From contig LDJB01000001.1 in assembly GCA_001028815.1 (NCBI GenBank), positions 246,707-310,706 of the forward strand: a DNA stretch of 64,000 bases. Direction: 5' to 3'. The notes below the pieces were generated by a model. It was not told where the DNA came from. It saw only the letters and a program-made list of their open reading frames with translations, and did not search any database. Source of the DNA: Peptococcaceae bacterium 1109 (lineage in GTDB: Bacteria; Bacillota; Limnochordia; Darwinibacteriales; Darwinibacteriaceae). The position numbers and the translations under genes were made by a program. Shown here in pieces: positions 13,305-22,271 of the stretch; positions within the stretch are counted from its first letter, which is position 1, and every line of letters begins with the position of its first letter.

Positions 13305-14414
13305 GTGACTTATGTGGCAACGCACGTTATTGACATCGCTGCCTTACTGTGTTTGACGGTGCTGCTCTATTCTAGCACCGCTCTGAACAGTAACCGCAAA
13401 CGGCCGTTTTTTGCTGGGATCGCGCTGACGATCATCATCATTCTATCGGAGGCGGGCACGCTCTTTGCCGGCCAGGGCAGTACCAACCTTCGCGCCCTTA
13501 ATGTGATCTGCAATGTGCTTGGCTTCGCTCTCGCTCCAATCGTTCCTCTGGCCATCACGTTCATCTTTGACAGTGGGATCTTGCGCAGGACCAAGATTTT
13601 CTTTCTACCCACGCTGATAAACATGGTTGCTGCGGCCCTCTCGCCTTTTTACATGTCAATCTTCTATGTAGACGGCAGCAACCGCTACGTCCGGGGCGAT
13701 CACTTCTTCGTTTTTATCATAGTTTATATCACTAATCTAGTGCTGCTTGTGATCAGCACCTTGGAGACGGGCAGGCGGTATAACTATCCCCTGGGCTTCA
13801 AAATGGTTGGATTATCGTTCTTTACCGTGCTAGGCACTAGCCTGCAGCTCATCTATCCTTCGGCCTACGCATCGTGGCACTGCGTTACCCTGGCATTGTT
13901 CTTGTATTTCCTTCTCATGTCTGAGTTTGACAGCAGTTTTGACTCGCTGACAGGGCTTTATAACCGTGCTGCATTTGACAACGCGGCGAAGGAAATGGAG
14001 GAGTCTGATCCGTTTTCCGTGATTGTCCTTGATATCGATGACTTCAAACAAGTCAATGATGCTAATGGGCATGCCCATGGAGATAAAGTGATCGGGACTG
14101 TAGCACAGGTTGTAAGGAACGTCTTCGGTAAGGACTACACGTGCTACCGGTTTGGTGGGGATGAGTTTGCTATTATCGGTACGGAAACGAACGCCGCGAG
14201 GATCGAAGAACGGCTTAGGGCTATGGTGAGCCAGCTAGCAGAAATCCGGGAGCACGGCAGTCCCCTGCCAACTGTATCCTATGGCTATAGCGTTCGGGAG
14301 GGACGAGAGGAGTCCGGATTTCAGCAGGCCCTCCAAGAGGCTGATGATCAGATGTATCGCTACAAGAAGGCCTATAAGGAAGGCGGGGATCGAAATGTAC
14401 GGCGAACTCCTTAA
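13305..14414 (+). CDS. Membrane-bound diguanylate cyclase (7 TM + GGDEF)
   Basis: 369 residues. Seven hydrophobic segments fill residues 8-206, resembling the 7TM sensor modules of histidine kinases and cyclases. A GGDEF domain follows (about 212-369), with an intact FGGDEF at 283-288, so it should make c-di-GMP. The inhibitory RxxD I-site upstream of GGDEF is absent (GKDY instead), suggesting no product feedback at that site. GAGGAGG precedes the GTG start. The last 20 bases overlap the next gene. Confidence 0.9.
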   Translation: MTYVATHVIDIAALLCLTVLLYSSTALNSNRKRPFFAGIALTIIIILSEAGTLFAGQGSTNLRALNVICNVLGFALAPIVPLAITFIFDSGILRRTKIFFLPTLINMVAAALSPFYMSIFYVDGSNRYVRGDHFFVFIIVYITNLVLLVISTLETGRRYNYPLGFKMVGLSFFTVLGTSLQLIYPSAYASWHCVTLALFLYFLLMSEFDSSFDSLTGLYNRAAFDNAAKEMEESDPFSVIVLDIDDFKQVNDANGHAHGDKVIGTVAQVVRNVFGKDYTCYRFGGDEFAIIGTETNAARIEERLRAMVSQLAEIREHGSPLPTVSYGYSVREGREESGFQQALQEADDQMYRYKKAYKEGGDRNVRRTP

Positions 14415-15120: not shown

Positions 15121-16617
15121 TTGAATATCCTTCTTGAACGCTTGAAAGAGAACGTATCGGCGGTTATTCCCATTGTGGTGATCGTACTTATCCTCAACTT
15201 TACTCTCGTACCACTAGAAACTCTAACCATTCTGCGCTTTCTCGTCGGCGCAGTCCTGTTGATCCTAGGGTTGTCCCTGTTTCTTGTGGGCGTAGACATT
15301 GGTATTACGCCTCTAGGGAGTCTCACTGGCAGTTCTCTTGTGAAGACAAACAAGCTGTGGATCGTCTTGAGCGTGGGGTTCATTTTGGCGTTTTTTATTT
15401 CCTTAGCTGAACCGGGATTACTGGTCCTGGCCAACCAAGTGGGTTTGGTAACTGCGGGACAGATCACCAGTGCTGAGTTGCTGATAATTGTCTCCATCGG
15501 CTTGGCGGTCCTGGTGTCCCTCGGGTTTGTGCGCATTTTTATGAGCATACCGCTGTACAAGTGGCTGATGGTCTGCTATGTATTTGTGTTCATCTTGTCT
15601 CTGTTCTCCTCCCCAGAGTTCTTGGCCATCGCTTTTGACGCTTCAGGGGCAACCACAGGGATCCTTGCAGTCCCCTTCATCTTGGCTCTGTCAGTAGGTG
15701 TTGCAGGCCTGCGCAGGGACAGCAAGGCTTCAGAAAAGGACAGCTTCGGGTTGGTGGCGATTGCTTCAGTGGGGGCGATTATGTCAGTTTTGATCTTGGG
15801 CCTCTTTTCAGGCGCCAGGGAGTTTGCCACCGCGCAGCTGGAACTGGTGCGCATCGGTGGCCGTTCGGTTCTGCATCCGTTTATACGATTGATACCTGGA
15901 GCCGTGTGGGAGAGCTTTGTGAGCATCCTTCCCCTTCTTGTGGGGCTGATCGTCCTGCAGAAGTTTTTGTTCAAGCTAGCGCCCAGGCCTTTTCGCAGGA
16001 TGCTTAAGGGTTTTGTGTATGCATTCATAGGCTTGTTCCTGTTCCTTGATGGCGTGAACGGGGGGTTTATGGAGGTGGCTAGTGAGCTCGGGTACCGCTT
16101 GGCACAGCGGACAAACAAGCTGCCCCTTGTGGTGACAGGATTCGGCCTTGGATTTGTCACAATTGTGGCGGAGCCCGCTGTCTTTGTCTTGACCCATCAG
16201 ATCGAAGAGGTGACCGCAGGATATGTGAAGCGCAAAGCGGTGGCAAGCGCCCTTTCCCTTGGGGTAGGGACTGCCGTAGCCCTGTCTATCTTGCGGATCC
16301 TTGTCCCCGGCATCAAGCTGTGGCATTATTTGCTGCCAGGGTATATTGTGGCCCTCGGTATGATGTATTTCGTGCCCAAGCTGTTCGTTGGTATCGCCTT
16401 TGATGCAGGAGGCGTTGCCACCGGCCCAATGACTGCCACCTTTATCTTGGCCTTTACGCAAGGCGCAGCAAGTGCCTTCGAGGGCGCAAATGTATTGTCT
16501 GATGGATTTGGCATGATTGCCCTAGTGGCCATGGCGCCCATCATTACCCTGCAAGCCCTGGGATTGATTTTCCAGGCTCGGTCTAGGAAAGAAGGAGTTG
16601 ATAGCAGTGCCGGCTAG
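15121..16617 (+). CDS. DUF1538 polytopic membrane protein, two repeats
   Basis: 498 residues, nearly all hydrophobic, with about twelve or more membrane segments. It is two homologous halves. Each carries an AEP motif (SLAEPGLLVL and VAEPAVFVL) and an FDAxGxxTG motif (AFDASGATTG and AFDAGGVATG), as in the DUF1538 family. The pattern of paired polar motifs inside membrane segments suggests an inverted-repeat transporter, but the substrate is unknown. TTG start, with a G-rich stretch upstream. The tandem PII-like gene overlaps its last 11 bases, so it is probably the regulated partner of that protein. Confidence 0.85.
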   Translation: MNILLERLKENVSAVIPIVVIVLILNFTLVPLETLTILRFLVGAVLLILGLSLFLVGVDIGITPLGSLTGSSLVKTNKLWIVLSVGFILAFFISLAEPGLLVLANQVGLVTAGQITSAELLIIVSIGLAVLVSLGFVRIFMSIPLYKWLMVCYVFVFILSLFSSPEFLAIAFDASGATTGILAVPFILALSVGVAGLRRDSKASEKDSFGLVAIASVGAIMSVLILGLFSGAREFATAQLELVRIGGRSVLHPFIRLIPGAVWESFVSILPLLVGLIVLQKFLFKLAPRPFRRMLKGFVYAFIGLFLFLDGVNGGFMEVASELGYRLAQRTNKLPLVVTGFGLGFVTIVAEPAVFVLTHQIEEVTAGYVKRKAVASALSLGVGTAVALSILRILVPGIKLWHYLLPGYIVALGMMYFVPKLFVGIAFDAGGVATGPMTATFILAFTQGAASAFEGANVLSDGFGMIALVAMAPIITLQALGLIFQARSRKEGVDSSAG

Positions 16618-17272
16618 TCCTGCTAACGACCAGTTTGAGTTGGTATGTGTAATCGTGAACTTCGGGGTAGGCAGTAAGGTCCTGAATATCGCTAGGGAGA
16701 GCGGCATCCCGGGAGGTACTGTGTTTCTGGGAAAGGGAACGGTGGAAAGCCGCCTATTACGCCTCCTTGAGCTGAGCGACAGCAGGAAGGAGATTGTTTT
16801 GATGGTCGCGGGGCGGGCTCAAGCCCGAGCAGCTCTAGGAGAGCTGAACAGGGTCTTGCGTTTCGACAAGCCCAATCACGGCATAGCCTTTACTACGAGT
16901 GTTTCAGCCTTCATGGGTATGGGAAGATATGACTATGAAGACACCGCCGTAAGGGGAGGTGGAGAGGATACAATGCACAACGCGATTTTCGTGATTGTGG
17001 ATCGGGGCAAGGGAGAGCAGGTCATGGACGCAGCCCGGGAAGCTGGTGCCCGGGGCGGTACCATCATTAATGCCCGGGGCTCCGGTATCCATGAGCATGC
17101 GAAGCTCTTAAACATGGAAATTGAGCCCGAGAAGGAAGTTGTGATGATCATAGCGCAGAGTGCCATAGCCCGGGATATTGTGTTGGCTGTCCGCGATGGT
17201 TTGGAGATTGACAAGCCGGGGAACGGCATCATCTTCGTCCAGCCCGTAAATGAGACATACGGGATTCGGTAA
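16607..17272 (+). CDS. Tandem PII-like (GlnB-type) signalling protein
   Basis: 221 residues forming two PII-like domains in a row, at about 9-106 and 119-221. The repeat is visible as GIPGGTVFLGKGT against GARGGTIINARGSG, and as DKPNHGIAF against DKPGNGIIF. PII proteins normally have about 112 residues, form trimers and bind ATP, ADP or 2-oxoglutarate to control transporters and enzymes. Here the first domain has no obvious T-loop tyrosine. GTG at 16607 is preferred over TTG 16598 because AAGGAG at 16592-16597 is correctly spaced. The 11-base overlap with the DUF1538 gene implies coupling, and I infer that it gates that membrane protein. Confidence 0.8.
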   Translation: MPASPANDQFELVCVIVNFGVGSKVLNIARESGIPGGTVFLGKGTVESRLLRLLELSDSRKEIVLMVAGRAQARAALGELNRVLRFDKPNHGIAFTTSVSAFMGMGRYDYEDTAVRGGGEDTMHNAIFVIVDRGKGEQVMDAAREAGARGGTIINARGSGIHEHAKLLNMEIEPEKEVVMIIAQSAIARDIVLAVRDGLEIDKPGNGIIFVQPVNETYGIR

Positions 17273-17946: not shown

Positions 17947-18057
17947 GGGAAAACACCTTTTGATGTGAAATTTCCCCGCGGAATGTTTTTTATTTCTATC
18001 CTAGAGGCGTGGGCTTTACCTCTGTTGAATACTACTGGCAAGAAAGGGGTGTTTCGC

Positions 18058-18621
18058 ATGTGGATTTTGCTGGTCTTAGCAGTAGTGCTCGTTCTGTATG
18101 TGGTGTTCACCTACAACGGCCTGATCACCCTGCGCCAGAGGGTGAGGAACGCCTGGGCGCAGGTGGACGTGCAGCTGAAGCGGAGGTATGACTTAATCCC
18201 TAACCTAGTCAATACTGTGCAGGGGTACGCCAGCCATGAGCAGGCCACTTTTGCCAAGATTTCCGAGGCACGCAGCAGAGCCATGAGGGCTGCTAGCACA
18301 GGGGAGCTGGCGGAAGCGGAGAACCAACTGTCCAGCACTCTACGAAGCCTGTTTGCGCTGGTGGAAAACTACCCTGAGCTGAAAGCTGATGCGAACTTCC
18401 GGGAGCTTCAAAAGGAACTGAGCGATACGGAGGGCAAGATCGCCTTTGCGCGGCAGTTCTACAACGATACTGTGCAGAAGTACAACATCCGGATTGAGGT
18501 TTTCCCCGCGAATATTGTGGCCCAGTTATTTGGTTTTACGCAGGAAGACTTCTTTTCCTTGGACCAGAACGCAGTGCAAAGGGAGAATGTGCAGGTCCGG
18601 TTTGGCAGTGATTCCAGATAG
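18058..18621 (+). CDS. lemA: LemA family protein
   Basis: 187 residues, normal length for LemA. One N-terminal membrane helix (WILLVLAVVLVLYVVF) is followed by the family core YNGLITLRQRVRNAWAQVDV, then QLKRRYDLIPNLV and a long helical bundle. The N-terminus is expected outside and the bundle is probably cytoplasmic. The role is unknown, but LemA is commonly paired with DUF2207/TPM-type membrane proteins, as here. ATG at 18058 is chosen because AAAGGGG precedes it and the upstream extension is not family-like. Confidence 0.9.
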   Translation: MWILLVLAVVLVLYVVFTYNGLITLRQRVRNAWAQVDVQLKRRYDLIPNLVNTVQGYASHEQATFAKISEARSRAMRAASTGELAEAENQLSSTLRSLFALVENYPELKADANFRELQKELSDTEGKIAFARQFYNDTVQKYNIRIEVFPANIVAQLFGFTQEDFFSLDQNAVQRENVQVRFGSDSR

Positions 18622-18637
18622 CAAGGGGGGACGCTTA

Positions 18638-20479
18638 GTGGCAAGGCGGCTGTCTGCCGTACTACTCATTGCAGTTATTCTGGTTGTCGTCCCCACTGTA
18701 AGAGCGCGAGACTACCGCTTTCCCAGTTTGTCCATTGAGGCCCAGCTGCGGGAAGATGGAACCTTGCACGTGGTGGAAACCCGCACAGCCTCCTTTACCG
18801 GCTCTTACAGCGGTATGTACCAATGGATAAATCTTGCCCGCGGAATGCGCATTACCGATGTACAAGTGGGTGAGCCTGGTAGGGCTTATCAGCATAATCC
18901 CAGTAACCGAATTGGCCCGCCCGGTACGTTCTTTGCTGAAGACCGGGGGGATGAGCTCTACATTGACTGGAGCTTTACTGCGTCCGATGAGGTCAGGACA
19001 TTCGTGATCTCCTATGTCGTCCACAACGCGGTCTTGATCCATGATGATGTGGCGGAACTCTACTATAAGTTTGTGGGGGACCGTTGGGAAAAGGGTGTGG
19101 ACCAAGTAGTAATCACCCTAAGCCTCCCGGAAGGTGCTGGGGTGCAGGACATTCGGGCGTGGGGACATGGCCCTCTCAATGGCATTGTGGAGATCGTTAA
19201 TGGCCAGATGGTGAGGTGGACGGTGACCTCCCTGAAGGCAGAAACCATGGTGGAAGGGCGAGTAACTTTCCCGCCAGGCCTGGTTACAGCAGGACAGCGC
19301 ACAGGCCGCATGGGACTGCCCGGTATACTCGCGGAAGAGGAGCGCTGGGCAGAGGAGGCAAACCGCCAGCGGATCAGATCAAGGGTCGACGTTGCCGTTG
19401 GAATTTTCTCAGCTTTTGCCACCTTTATCGGCGCGATCTTCATGTGGGCGCGTTACGGGCGAGCCCACCGTCCTGACTTTACCAGTGAGTACTACCGGGA
19501 ACTTCCAGCCGATTACTCCCCTGCAGAACTGGGGGTTTTGTGGAACGGGGAGGTGGTAGGATCCAAGGAGTTTACCGCTACCTTATTGGATCTGGCACGG
19601 AGGGGCGTTGTTAAGATATCAGAGGAACGGGTCGAAAAGCGAGGGATCATGAGGCGGAAGGAGAAGACCCAATACCGCTTCACTCCTGGTGAAGAGGGAG
19701 GCTCCCTCAAACCGCACGAACAGGCGGTCTTGGATCTGTTCTTTGAGGATGTCCAGCAGTCACTGAAAGGCAAGGAAGAGTCGGAAGGCCCCGGGGTCAC
19801 CCTATCCGATGTTGAATCTTACGCTCGCAGGCACAGGCGTGCGTTCAGGGAGTTTTGGATAGGCTGGCAGGAGGACGTGAAACGGGCCGCGGCCAAGCAC
19901 AACTTCTTCGAATCCATCAGCGGGATGCCCCAGGTTTTAGGTTTCTTGACGGGCCTAGGCTCGGTGGGCCTCGCGGTAGCGGCCTTCATCTTCGGCTGGT
20001 GGATCAGCGGCATCGGCCTGGTGGTGGCTGGAGTGGTGTTCACAATTCTCAGTGCCGTGCTGAGGCGCCGCACTGTGAGGGGAAGCAACGATTACGCACG
20101 CTGGAAAGCGTTCCGCCGGTTCTTGCTGCACTTCTCAGAGCTTCCGCGCCAGGAAGTCCCGGCCCTTGTGATCTGGGAGCATTACCTGGTCTATGCTGTC
20201 ACTTTGGGCGTGGCTCAACAGGTCATAAAACAGCTTGAAATCGTCTTCCCAAATCTAGAAGATGGCCAGTACCGCTTTGGCTACGGATGGTACTACTACG
20301 GCTTCGGTACCGCCAGGAGGGGCGGAGGCCTGTCTGATCTCACCGCTGCACTGGATCGGAGCATTGCCCAGACTGTACAGCTTGCTACCAGCCAGAGCTC
20401 CTCAGGGAGCGGATCTGGAGGTGGTTTTTCCGGTGGCGGAGGCGGAGGCTTTGGGGGCGGCGGAGGAGGGGCTCGCTGA
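18638..20479 (+). CDS. DUF2207 domain membrane protein with Gly-rich tail
   Basis: 613 residues. An N-terminal signal or anchor (LSAVLLIAVILVVVPTVRA) is followed by an outside DUF2207 domain (RDYRFPSLSIEAQL onward). A membrane helix lies near 250-270. A cytoplasmic part with HPD-like segments follows, then two close membrane helices around 430-470. The C-terminus is a Gly/Ser-rich low-complexity tail (FSGGGGGGFGGGGGG), common in this family. It follows lemA by 16 bases, a conserved pairing; the function is unknown. The GTG start has AAGGGGGG upstream; the longer open frame upstream is just lemA in another frame. Confidence 0.88.
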   Translation: MARRLSAVLLIAVILVVVPTVRARDYRFPSLSIEAQLREDGTLHVVETRTASFTGSYSGMYQWINLARGMRITDVQVGEPGRAYQHNPSNRIGPPGTFFAEDRGDELYIDWSFTASDEVRTFVISYVVHNAVLIHDDVAELYYKFVGDRWEKGVDQVVITLSLPEGAGVQDIRAWGHGPLNGIVEIVNGQMVRWTVTSLKAETMVEGRVTFPPGLVTAGQRTGRMGLPGILAEEERWAEEANRQRIRSRVDVAVGIFSAFATFIGAIFMWARYGRAHRPDFTSEYYRELPADYSPAELGVLWNGEVVGSKEFTATLLDLARRGVVKISEERVEKRGIMRRKEKTQYRFTPGEEGGSLKPHEQAVLDLFFEDVQQSLKGKEESEGPGVTLSDVESYARRHRRAFREFWIGWQEDVKRAAAKHNFFESISGMPQVLGFLTGLGSVGLAVAAFIFGWWISGIGLVVAGVVFTILSAVLRRRTVRGSNDYARWKAFRRFLLHFSELPRQEVPALVIWEHYLVYAVTLGVAQQVIKQLEIVFPNLEDGQYRFGYGWYYYGFGTARRGGGLSDLTAALDRSIAQTVQLATSQSSSGSGSGGGFSGGGGGGFGGGGGGAR

Positions 20480-20573
20480 TCTCCCGCCCGTGAAACAGGA
20501 ATTTCCAGTGAAGCAGCGAATATGTAAGATGTCCTTTTTGATCAAGCCTCTGGCTGGGGGGAGTTCAGTCCAA

Positions 20574-22271
20574 ATGAGGGATGTGACCAAAATACCGCAT
20601 GGCAAGAACCAGGAATCTGTATCTTCTCCTTGCTGGCAGCAGATTGCGGACGCACTCCACGACTATCAGCTGATGATAGACGGGGCCAAGGATGGCCTGT
20701 GGATGTATAACATCAGCTCCGATCGTTACGTAGTTTCTCAGAAGGATCGGGAGCGCTTTGATTTTGATCCCTCACATGAGGTGTACTCTCTGCAAGCGTG
20801 GCAAAGCTTACTCCATCCGGATGATGCGGCCCAGGCAGTAAACGCCTTCGTGAATTTCCTGGAAGGCACTAGCGATGTGTACGAGAACACTTACCGGCTC
20901 CGCAGCCGGGACGGTTCGTACCGCTGGGTGAAGAGCCATGGAATTGCGGATCGCTCCGGTGATGGCACCATCGTCAGTGTGGCAGGCAGCCATACGGATA
21001 TTACCAGTGAGGTGGAGCAGGATAGGCTCTTGTACCGTTTGGCGTACTATGACGAGTTGACCAGGCTTCCCAACCGTACCAAATTGCGGCGGGATTTTGA
21101 CGCCCTCAAGCGAGAAGGGATGGCCTTTCTGTTTGTGGACGTAGATGATGTGAGTTATGTCAACAGTGTGATGGGCTACGATGTGGGTGATCGCCTTATC
21201 GAGGAGATTGGCGCGATGTTCGGCAGCCGCTACGGCCAGCAGCACTACGTTGCCAAGCTTGACTCTGATCAGTTTGCTGTGCTCCTCTTTGATTCAGTGG
21301 ATCTGGATCGAGAGCTCAATGAGCTCTTGGAGGAAGTCCGATCCATGGCATTCTTAGGGGACTCAGGCCTGCACGTGACCCTCAGCATTGGCGTTGCCTT
21401 GTATGGCCCTCACGGCACGAGTTTTGATGATCTGCTCCGCAGGGCAAACACGGCGCTCCATTATGCGAAGGCGAACGGGAAAGATCAGCACCAGTTCTAC
21501 CAAACGGCCATGGAAAACTATGCCTACATGTATGTAGATAATGTGAAACAGATTCGGAAGGCCCTCGCGGAAGTGCAGTTTGAGATGCATTACCAGCCCA
21601 TAGTGGATGCTGTCACTGGCAGGATCGCAGGCCGGGAGGCTCTCCTCAGGTGGAATCACCCCCAGCGGGGCCTGGTACCACCAGGGGAGTTCATTCCCTT
21701 GGTAGAGCAGTCTCGCCAGATGATGGACTTGGAGCGCTGGATTTTGGACGCGGTCTACGGCCAGTATGCCGTATGGTCACGGAAAGAGCGGAGCGGCTGG
21801 TTTGTTTCCATCAACCTCTCTGCACGGGGGCTGTTGTCAAACGCTTTGGATGAGTATCTCGATTACCTCACTGAAACCCATGAGGTGGAACCAGGTTACG
21901 TAGAACTGGAAATTACTGAGACGGCGCTGCTCATTAACGCTGGGCAGACCCTGGAAACCTTGTATCGCCTGCACGAGCGTGGCTTTCGCATCGCCCTGGA
22001 TGATTTCGGCACGGGCTACTCTTCCCTCCATTACCTGAAGACGCTGCCCATAGACATGGTCAAGCTTGACCGCAGCTTCATAAGGACTGTGGAGACAGTG
22101 GAAAAGGACCGGGTGATCGTGAGCTCTGTCGTTGATCTGGCTCACAGGATGGGGCTCACAGTGGTGGCGGAGGGAGTGGAGACCGCGTCGCAAGACCGCT
22201 TGCTCCGCGAGTTAGGTTGTGATTTGATGCAAGGCTATTTCTATGGCCGCCCCGAGCCAGTGTACTTCTGA
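20574..22271 (+). CDS. PAS-GGDEF(degenerate)-EAL c-di-GMP phosphodiesterase
   Basis: 565 residues, no membrane segment. A PAS domain of the PAS_3 type spans about 25-140. The GGDEF domain (150-310) has LDSDQF in place of GGDEF near residue 228, so it should not make c-di-GMP but may bind GTP. The EAL domain (325-565) keeps REALLRW, EITETALL, LDDFGTGYSS and VVAEGVET, so phosphodiesterase activity is likely. ATG at 20574 is chosen because GGGGGGAG lies about eleven bases before it; an in-frame ATG at 20529 would add 15 residues and has no clear ribosome site. It probably opposes the cyclase at 13305. Confidence 0.85.
   Translation: MRDVTKIPHGKNQESVSSPCWQQIADALHDYQLMIDGAKDGLWMYNISSDRYVVSQKDRERFDFDPSHEVYSLQAWQSLLHPDDAAQAVNAFVNFLEGTSDVYENTYRLRSRDGSYRWVKSHGIADRSGDGTIVSVAGSHTDITSEVEQDRLLYRLAYYDELTRLPNRTKLRRDFDALKREGMAFLFVDVDDVSYVNSVMGYDVGDRLIEEIGAMFGSRYGQQHYVAKLDSDQFAVLLFDSVDLDRELNELLEEVRSMAFLGDSGLHVTLSIGVALYGPHGTSFDDLLRRANTALHYAKANGKDQHQFYQTAMENYAYMYVDNVKQIRKALAEVQFEMHYQPIVDAVTGRIAGREALLRWNHPQRGLVPPGEFIPLVEQSRQMMDLERWILDAVYGQYAVWSRKERSGWFVSINLSARGLLSNALDEYLDYLTETHEVEPGYVELEITETALLINAGQTLETLYRLHERGFRIALDDFGTGYSSLHYLKTLPIDMVKLDRSFIRTVETVEKDRVIVSSVVDLAHRMGLTVVAEGVETASQDRLLRELGCDLMQGYFYGRPEPVYF

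Follow-up and report, generated by a model that had tools for sequence, protein, structure and literature searches.

A fused DUF1538 membrane protein paired with a tandem PII-like protein: a probable cation/proton antiporter with a proposed PII-family regulator

Introduction

DUF1538 proteins as antiporters and PII proteins as regulators of transporters are both already known. GlnK docks on AmtB and controls transport. Moreover, the PII-like protein SbtB plugs the bicarbonate transporter SbtA (PMC10991534). The one DUF1538 system studied, UmpAB of Halomonas zhaodongensis, is a Na+(Li+,K+)/H+ antiporter consisting of two DUF1538 chains, both of which are needed and for which seven transmembrane segments (TMS) each were predicted (PMC5484666). 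Antiport by UmpAB was measured in vesicles, with K0.5 values of 0.26–0.46 mM (PMC5484666). In E. coli, UmpAB was functional with no PII gene co-cloned, and PII is never mentioned in that study (PMC5484666), which counts against control of DUF1538 transporters by PII.

In the locus analyzed here, a DUF1538 protein comprising two repeats in one chain is encoded next to a PII-like protein that likewise comprises two domains. Within the open PMC literature (subscription papers and preprints lie outside this scope), no account of a DUF1538-PII pairing, of tandem PII chains or of DUF1538 topology was found. New are the antiparallelism indicated for the repeats by loop charges, the trend in PII domain number, the motif asymmetry between the N- and C-terminal PII domains and a confident DUF1538 model that has no match in the PDB.

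Results and Discussion

Organization of the locus

Within the window, i.e., the whole stretch of 64,000 nucleotides analyzed, ORF translation yielded a DUF1538 membrane protein of 498 aa encoded at positions 15121–16617 (+; TTG start at 15121, stop at 16617) and a PII-like protein of 221 aa encoded at 16607–17272 (+; GTG start at 16607, stop at 17272). The initial annotation reported an overlap of 11 nt between these genes, and this overlap is considered correct because AGAAGGAG (16590–16597, +), the likely ribosome-binding site of the PII gene located within the DUF1538 gene, precedes the GTG codon at 16607 by approximately 9 nt. An alternative PII start, TTG at 16598, is possible and less likely than the GTG codon. 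A promoter scan returned nothing above chance, and Rfam searches, covering the window region as well as 48 related loci, detected neither a sodium or lithium riboswitch nor any other immediately upstream of the DUF1538 gene. One mir-593 match inside the coding sequence scored far below the Rfam cut-off and was discarded. Downstream of the pair (window 17965–20479), a LemA-like gene is followed by one whose product, a large membrane protein ending in a Gly-rich tail, resembles DUF2207 by eye. Proteins of the GGDEF and GGDEF-EAL types, recognized by motif, are encoded on either side (window 13305–14414 and 20262–22271).

Domains and predicted folds of the two proteins

The 498-aa protein was assigned two PF07556 domains (Pfam, E=3e-131, 435.6 bits; gathering cut-off 22.6 bits), and each half matched PF07556 on its own (E=2e-64 and 1e-68). 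Repeat 1 comprises residues 18–229 (15172–15807, +) and repeat 2 residues 274–483 (15940–16569, +). When aligned to each other, the halves showed 34% identity (E=9e-35). The AEP and FDAxGxxTG motifs initially described as matched between two repeats were found in both of them, namely AEP at residues 96–98 (15406–15414, +) and 350–352 (16168–16176, +; E351 invariant among 48 sequences), FDASGATTG at residues 172–180 (15634–15660, +) and FDAGGVATG at residues 427–435 (16399–16425, +; D428 invariant). Furthermore, the UmpA and UmpB models of NCBIfam (NF041627 and NF041628) matched both halves with 178.7 and 147.2 bits at equivalog cut-offs of 490 and 500 bits, respectively. Judged by the NCBIfam rule for sequence scores, the fused protein is a relative and not an ortholog of UmpA/UmpB, and this low similarity counts against reading it as an UmpAB-type antiporter.

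The AlphaFold2 model of the DUF1538 protein (pLDDT 86, pTM 0.87) comprises approximately seven membrane segments per repeat (about 7+7 TMS), with both termini predicted to be cytosolic. Two segments per repeat are broken, one at the AEP and one at the FDAxGxxTG motif. Foldseek retrieved no PDB chain with E<0.001 for this model (best TM-score approximately 0.2 or less), and no solved relatives were found by sequence or by fold. The model is compatible with a possible new transporter fold; alternatively, Foldseek may have missed a relative through an unusual order of the repeats.

For the PII-like protein, two PII-type domains in one chain of 221 residues had been claimed. The C-terminal domain (residues 124–221; 16976–17269, +) alone reached the P-II cut-off of Pfam (E=9e-13); the N-terminal domain (residues 9–105; 16631–16921, +) scored below it, with a marginal DUF190 match. 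Nevertheless, the two halves aligned with 34% identity (E=8e-16), a family profile of the N-terminal half matched a solved P-II protein over residues 9–105 (E=4e-8; nearest structure 9p1x), and AlphaFold2 predicted two beta-alpha-beta-beta-alpha-beta (ferredoxin-like) domains (pLDDT 88.8, pTM 0.84). GlnK/PII proteins were the top Foldseek matches of the whole model. Since the N-terminal half aligns to the C-terminal one, matches P-II by profile and is modelled as a PII-type domain, it is regarded as PII. The claim is thus upheld, a PII fold being present in the structure prediction of each half. Because the halves of either protein align with each other, at 34% identity each, both proteins represent internal duplications. 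The chain differs from the canonical GlnB/GlnK chain, a single domain that forms homotrimers, by carrying two domains. To our knowledge, neither double nor triple PII chains have been described.

Motifs common to the C-terminal domain and single-domain partners of DUF1538 are RGxGxHE, EPEKE and PGxGI; the first is present as RGSGIHE at residues 157–163 (17075–17095, +), at the base of a shortened T-loop. Among the N-terminal domains of the fused class, RGxGxHE and EPEKE were each found in 0/144. According to these sequence motifs, the C-terminal half has retained the ancestral PII motif and the N-terminal half has diverged. The PROSITE signatures of PII were taken as given in PMC5768801. Neither the T-loop signature PS00496 (Y-[KR]-G-[AS]-[AE]-Y) nor the B-loop signature PS00638 ([ST]-x3-G-[DY]-G-[KR]-[IV]-[FW]) was found in any of the 381 PII domains adjoining DUF1538. 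The classical readout of ATP and 2-oxoglutarate, as envisaged in the initial annotation, should therefore not be assumed. Binding of an adenylate or another ligand at the C-terminal domain is a guess.

Conservation of the DUF1538-PII pairing

PF07556 was detected in 139/398 genomes of the Bacillota, in 27/149 genomes from the phylum to which a Treponema match belongs and in 14/198 genomes from that of a Mobiluncus match; 80 named contigs were surveyed in addition, as were plasmids. The surroundings of the loci were fetched, and domains were called with profiles built within this analysis. A PII gene adjoins DUF1538 in 201 of the 206 non-redundant loci with usable flanks, a count from which loci retrieved by PII queries were omitted. 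These loci belong to Bacillota, Spirochaetota, Actinomycetota and Alphaproteobacteria, and the PII domain starts at a median distance of 17 nt past the DUF1538 stop codon. Chance pairing is excluded since genomes harbor few PII genes, and the conserved neighborhood sought across genomes is thus established. Ten further lone DUF1538 copies all had an adjacent PII gene (10/10), the same gene order was seen in RefSeq entries of Peptoclostridium, Methylocystis and Chelativorans, and the pair also occurs on alphaproteobacterial plasmids. In one Tissierellia contig, two DUF1538 repeats and a PII domain even share one reading frame (L218:4001–5809). There, a tandem PII gene precedes the fusion, resulting in three PII domains in the locus of this MAG (L218:3372–5809).

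Five loci were found without a PII neighbor. Two of them (L043 and L132) can be accounted for, as one is a mere fragment of DUF1538 and the other lies on a contig that is short and broken. The other three (L092, L193 and L202) encode fused DUF1538 proteins and count against the interpretation as a PII-controlled antiporter.

Architectures of transporter and regulator

Lone DUF1538 genes were accompanied by one PII domain in 22/22 loci. For two adjacent DUF1538 genes, one PII was found in 31 loci, two PII genes in 8 and a tandem PII in 16. Fused DUF1538 genes were accompanied by a tandem PII in 125 directly surveyed loci, the exceptions being two separate PII genes in L052 and one PII at the second Mobiluncus copy (L210). 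Two other fused loci called with one PII are explained by truncation of the chain at the contig boundary (L237) and by weak scores of the outer domains in a long spirochaete chain (L272). The spirochaete loci L271, L272, L274 and L275 encode chains of 364–392 aa in which as many as three PII domains occur; the neighboring DUF1538 proteins are enlarged (630–734 aa) and contain soluble inserts. Three domains were called in L275 (E=1e-10, 3e-15 and 6e-5), and two to three are detectable in its relatives.

Based on these sequence calls, PII domain number tends to rise with DUF1538 duplication, from one for lone genes via one or two for pairs to a tandem for fused proteins. On a FastTree phylogeny of 148 DUF1538 proteins, in which many inner branches are weak, fusion of the transporter required two changes and formation of the PII tandem nine, so that several PII tandems arose apart from transporter fusion. 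A lock-step rule, by which a fused transporter goes with a tandem PII, was considered and rejected, an independent-pairs test being without power at only two fusion changes. Because of these few events, the co-variation is given as a trend without significance.

Probable antiparallel arrangement of the DUF1538 repeats

Topology was evaluated by counting K+R residues in alternate loops, using a base definition as well as wide and narrow loop variants. First genes of DUF1538 pairs showed a bias of +4.3 (same sign in 55/55) and second genes one of -4.0 (opposite sign in 55/55). Likewise, biases of +6.8 (136/136) and -5.3 (135/136, one tie) were obtained for the N- and C-terminal halves of fused proteins, and the opposite bias of the two units was robust to the wide and narrow definitions. 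As first and second genes, and N- and C-terminal halves, are oppositely biased nearly without exception, the two repeats look antiparallel in the membrane. In the protein studied here, positive loops of repeat 1 imply a cytosolic N-terminus. Given an odd number of segments, repeat 2 would be inverted, in line with its opposite loop charge bias, and the C-terminus would again be cytosolic. This prediction agrees with the PII domain fused at that end in the Tissierellia protein.

Lone DUF1538 copies (n=22) had a mean bias of -0.3, with 9 positive, 8 negative and 5 tied cases. Their bias was far weaker than that of the pairs and varied with loop definition (-0.3 base, +0.6 wide, -1.6 narrow), which is why dual topology of these single-domain copies is only suggested. 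Several of them represent the sole PF07556 match of their genome (e.g., G209, G298 and G345), and these are therefore presumably active as homo-oligomers.

PII and cation exchange in the same genome

In total, three places in the genome score above the Pfam cut-off for PII: the tandem PII, a single-domain PII (111 aa) behind a lone single-repeat DUF1538 of 250 aa (L134:4588–5747), and a PII-like gene located 26 bp behind a PF00999 Na+/H+ exchanger gene (G000:C2:635000–642000; L133:2366–3963). Among 20 loci fetched across the class, 19 retain the PF00999-PII pairing. That, in a single genome, two unrelated families which include cation/proton antiporters are each linked to a PII gene of their own is the best circumstantial evidence for PII control of cation/proton exchange. 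The genome lacks an AmtB/ammonium transporter, and because all three PII places are moreover linked to transporters, a role in nitrogen regulation is unlikely. The lone DUF1538 copy is neighbored by lexA-like, LysM-type and aminoacyl-tRNA synthetase-like genes. In a Treponema locus (L245:1462–3225), one chain of 587 aa was observed to combine an ammonium transporter-like part with a PII domain of canonical type (signature GHIGDGKIF).

Functional interpretation

Based on domain content, predicted topology and gene context, it is considered fairly probable that the pair consists of a monovalent cation/proton antiporter, i.e., a fused UmpAB-type DUF1538 protein with antiparallel repeats, and a dedicated cytosolic PII-family regulator. 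We infer antiport by the fused protein as well as PII-DUF1538 binding, the direction of control, the ligand and the stoichiometry; adjacency of the genes as such is no proof of binding. A metabolite-gated channel or carrier of unknown substrate had been proposed initially. From this proposal, the two-repeat transporter, the two-domain PII, the conserved pairing and a likely regulatory coupling were retained; the metabolite channel was not, since antiport of Na+(Li+,K+) against H+ was established for UmpAB, the only DUF1538 system studied, which makes cation/proton antiport the likelier function and the substrate not simply unknown (PMC5484666).

That DUF1538 carries another substrate (ammonium, bicarbonate or an organic ion), the flux of which is controlled by PII, corresponds to the initially proposed metabolite carrier and is rated as rather unlikely. 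Known PII-controlled transporters do carry ammonium or bicarbonate, UmpAB represents a single heterologous study from which the fused proteins are distant, and Rfam gave no sodium or other riboswitch upstream of the fused genes to indicate the substrate. However, antiport by UmpAB was measured in vesicles at sub-millimolar K0.5 (PMC5484666), and another PII encoded in this genome is located behind a Na+/H+ exchanger. It appears clearly improbable that PII acts as a constitutive structural subunit for folding or activity instead of a ligand-dependent switch: the near-universal pairing, a gene overlap suggestive of fixed stoichiometry and the loss of the canonical nucleotide-binding signature would fit such a role, but UmpAB was active without co-cloned PII (PMC5484666), a few DUF1538 loci lack PII, and the C-terminal domain retains the tightly conserved RGxGxHE, EPEKE and PGxGI motifs. 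RefSeq labels such genes as 'P-II family nitrogen regulator'; an ordinary nitrogen-regulatory PII located here by chance is nevertheless extremely improbable and already refuted by the survey, given its adjacency to DUF1538 in 201/206 loci of four phyla, a genome without AmtB and canonical PII, and the lack of both PROSITE signatures.

For the antiporter with a PII regulator, Na+/K+-H+ exchange would proceed by alternating access between the two antiparallel repeats. PII would dock on the cytosolic face and, in one small-ligand state, slow or plug transport, as GlnK does with AmtB and SbtB with SbtA. In the lineage whose transporter turned into an asymmetric pair joined in one chain, the PII gene would have been duplicated and fused as well, which would account for the tandem. 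The tandem could provide the asymmetric transporter with two unlike docking or sensing domains. Probably, the ancestral ligand site is retained in the C-terminal domain, the N-terminal one having become specialized.

A farther-reaching hypothesis is put forward tentatively. DUF1538 proteins might in general be cation/proton antiporters with a fold absent from the PDB, in which all steps from dual-topology monomer via antiparallel pair to fused protein are preserved; PII might have been co-duplicated and specialized, so that, in two- and three-domain chains, the unlike domains each sense an input of their own or bind to differing cytosolic surfaces. If the interpretation of the pair is right, PII control would cover, beyond the uptake of nitrogen and carbon, the homeostasis of sodium/potassium and of pH, in approximately one third of the sampled Bacillota genomes (139/398 carry DUF1538). 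Furthermore, a compact and testable family for following transporter and regulator duplication together would be at hand, and double and triple PII chains would become available for biochemistry.

Comparison with known systems

The fused protein resembles UmpAB in belonging to PF07556 and in comprising two homologous 7-TM units, and differs from it by its single chain, by scores far under the UmpA/UmpB equivalog cut-offs and by the PII partner. Similar to SbtA/SbtB and AmtB/GlnK, a transporter gene is paired with a gene of the PII superfamily, although DUF1538 belongs to an unrelated transporter family. SbtB and GlnK form homotrimers of single-domain chains, and their adenylate sites are known, whereas the protein described here has its PII domains in tandem, a shortened T-loop and no canonical nucleotide signature. 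Proteins of the UPF0016/Gdt1 family are, like DUF1538, putative exchangers of cations in which a motif-bearing repeat occurs once or twice (PMC4067407); they represent another family with another motif, for which no PII is known. The DUF606 and SMR families (EmrE, YdgE/YdgF) show a comparable series within one family, namely lone unbiased proteins, oppositely biased pairs and, for DUF606, fused proteins (PMC3962082); the lone members of DUF1538 have a weak bias that depends on loop definition. K+R biases reported for dual-topology and paired proteins (EmrE -2, CrcB 0, YdgE 7, YdgL -7; PMC3962082) are similar in size to those of DUF1538 (lone -0.3, pairs approximately +/-4, fused +6.8/-5.3). 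Unlike DUF606/SMR, to which it has no sequence relation, DUF1538 has seven TM segments per unit and a soluble regulator that has been duplicated alongside the transporter.
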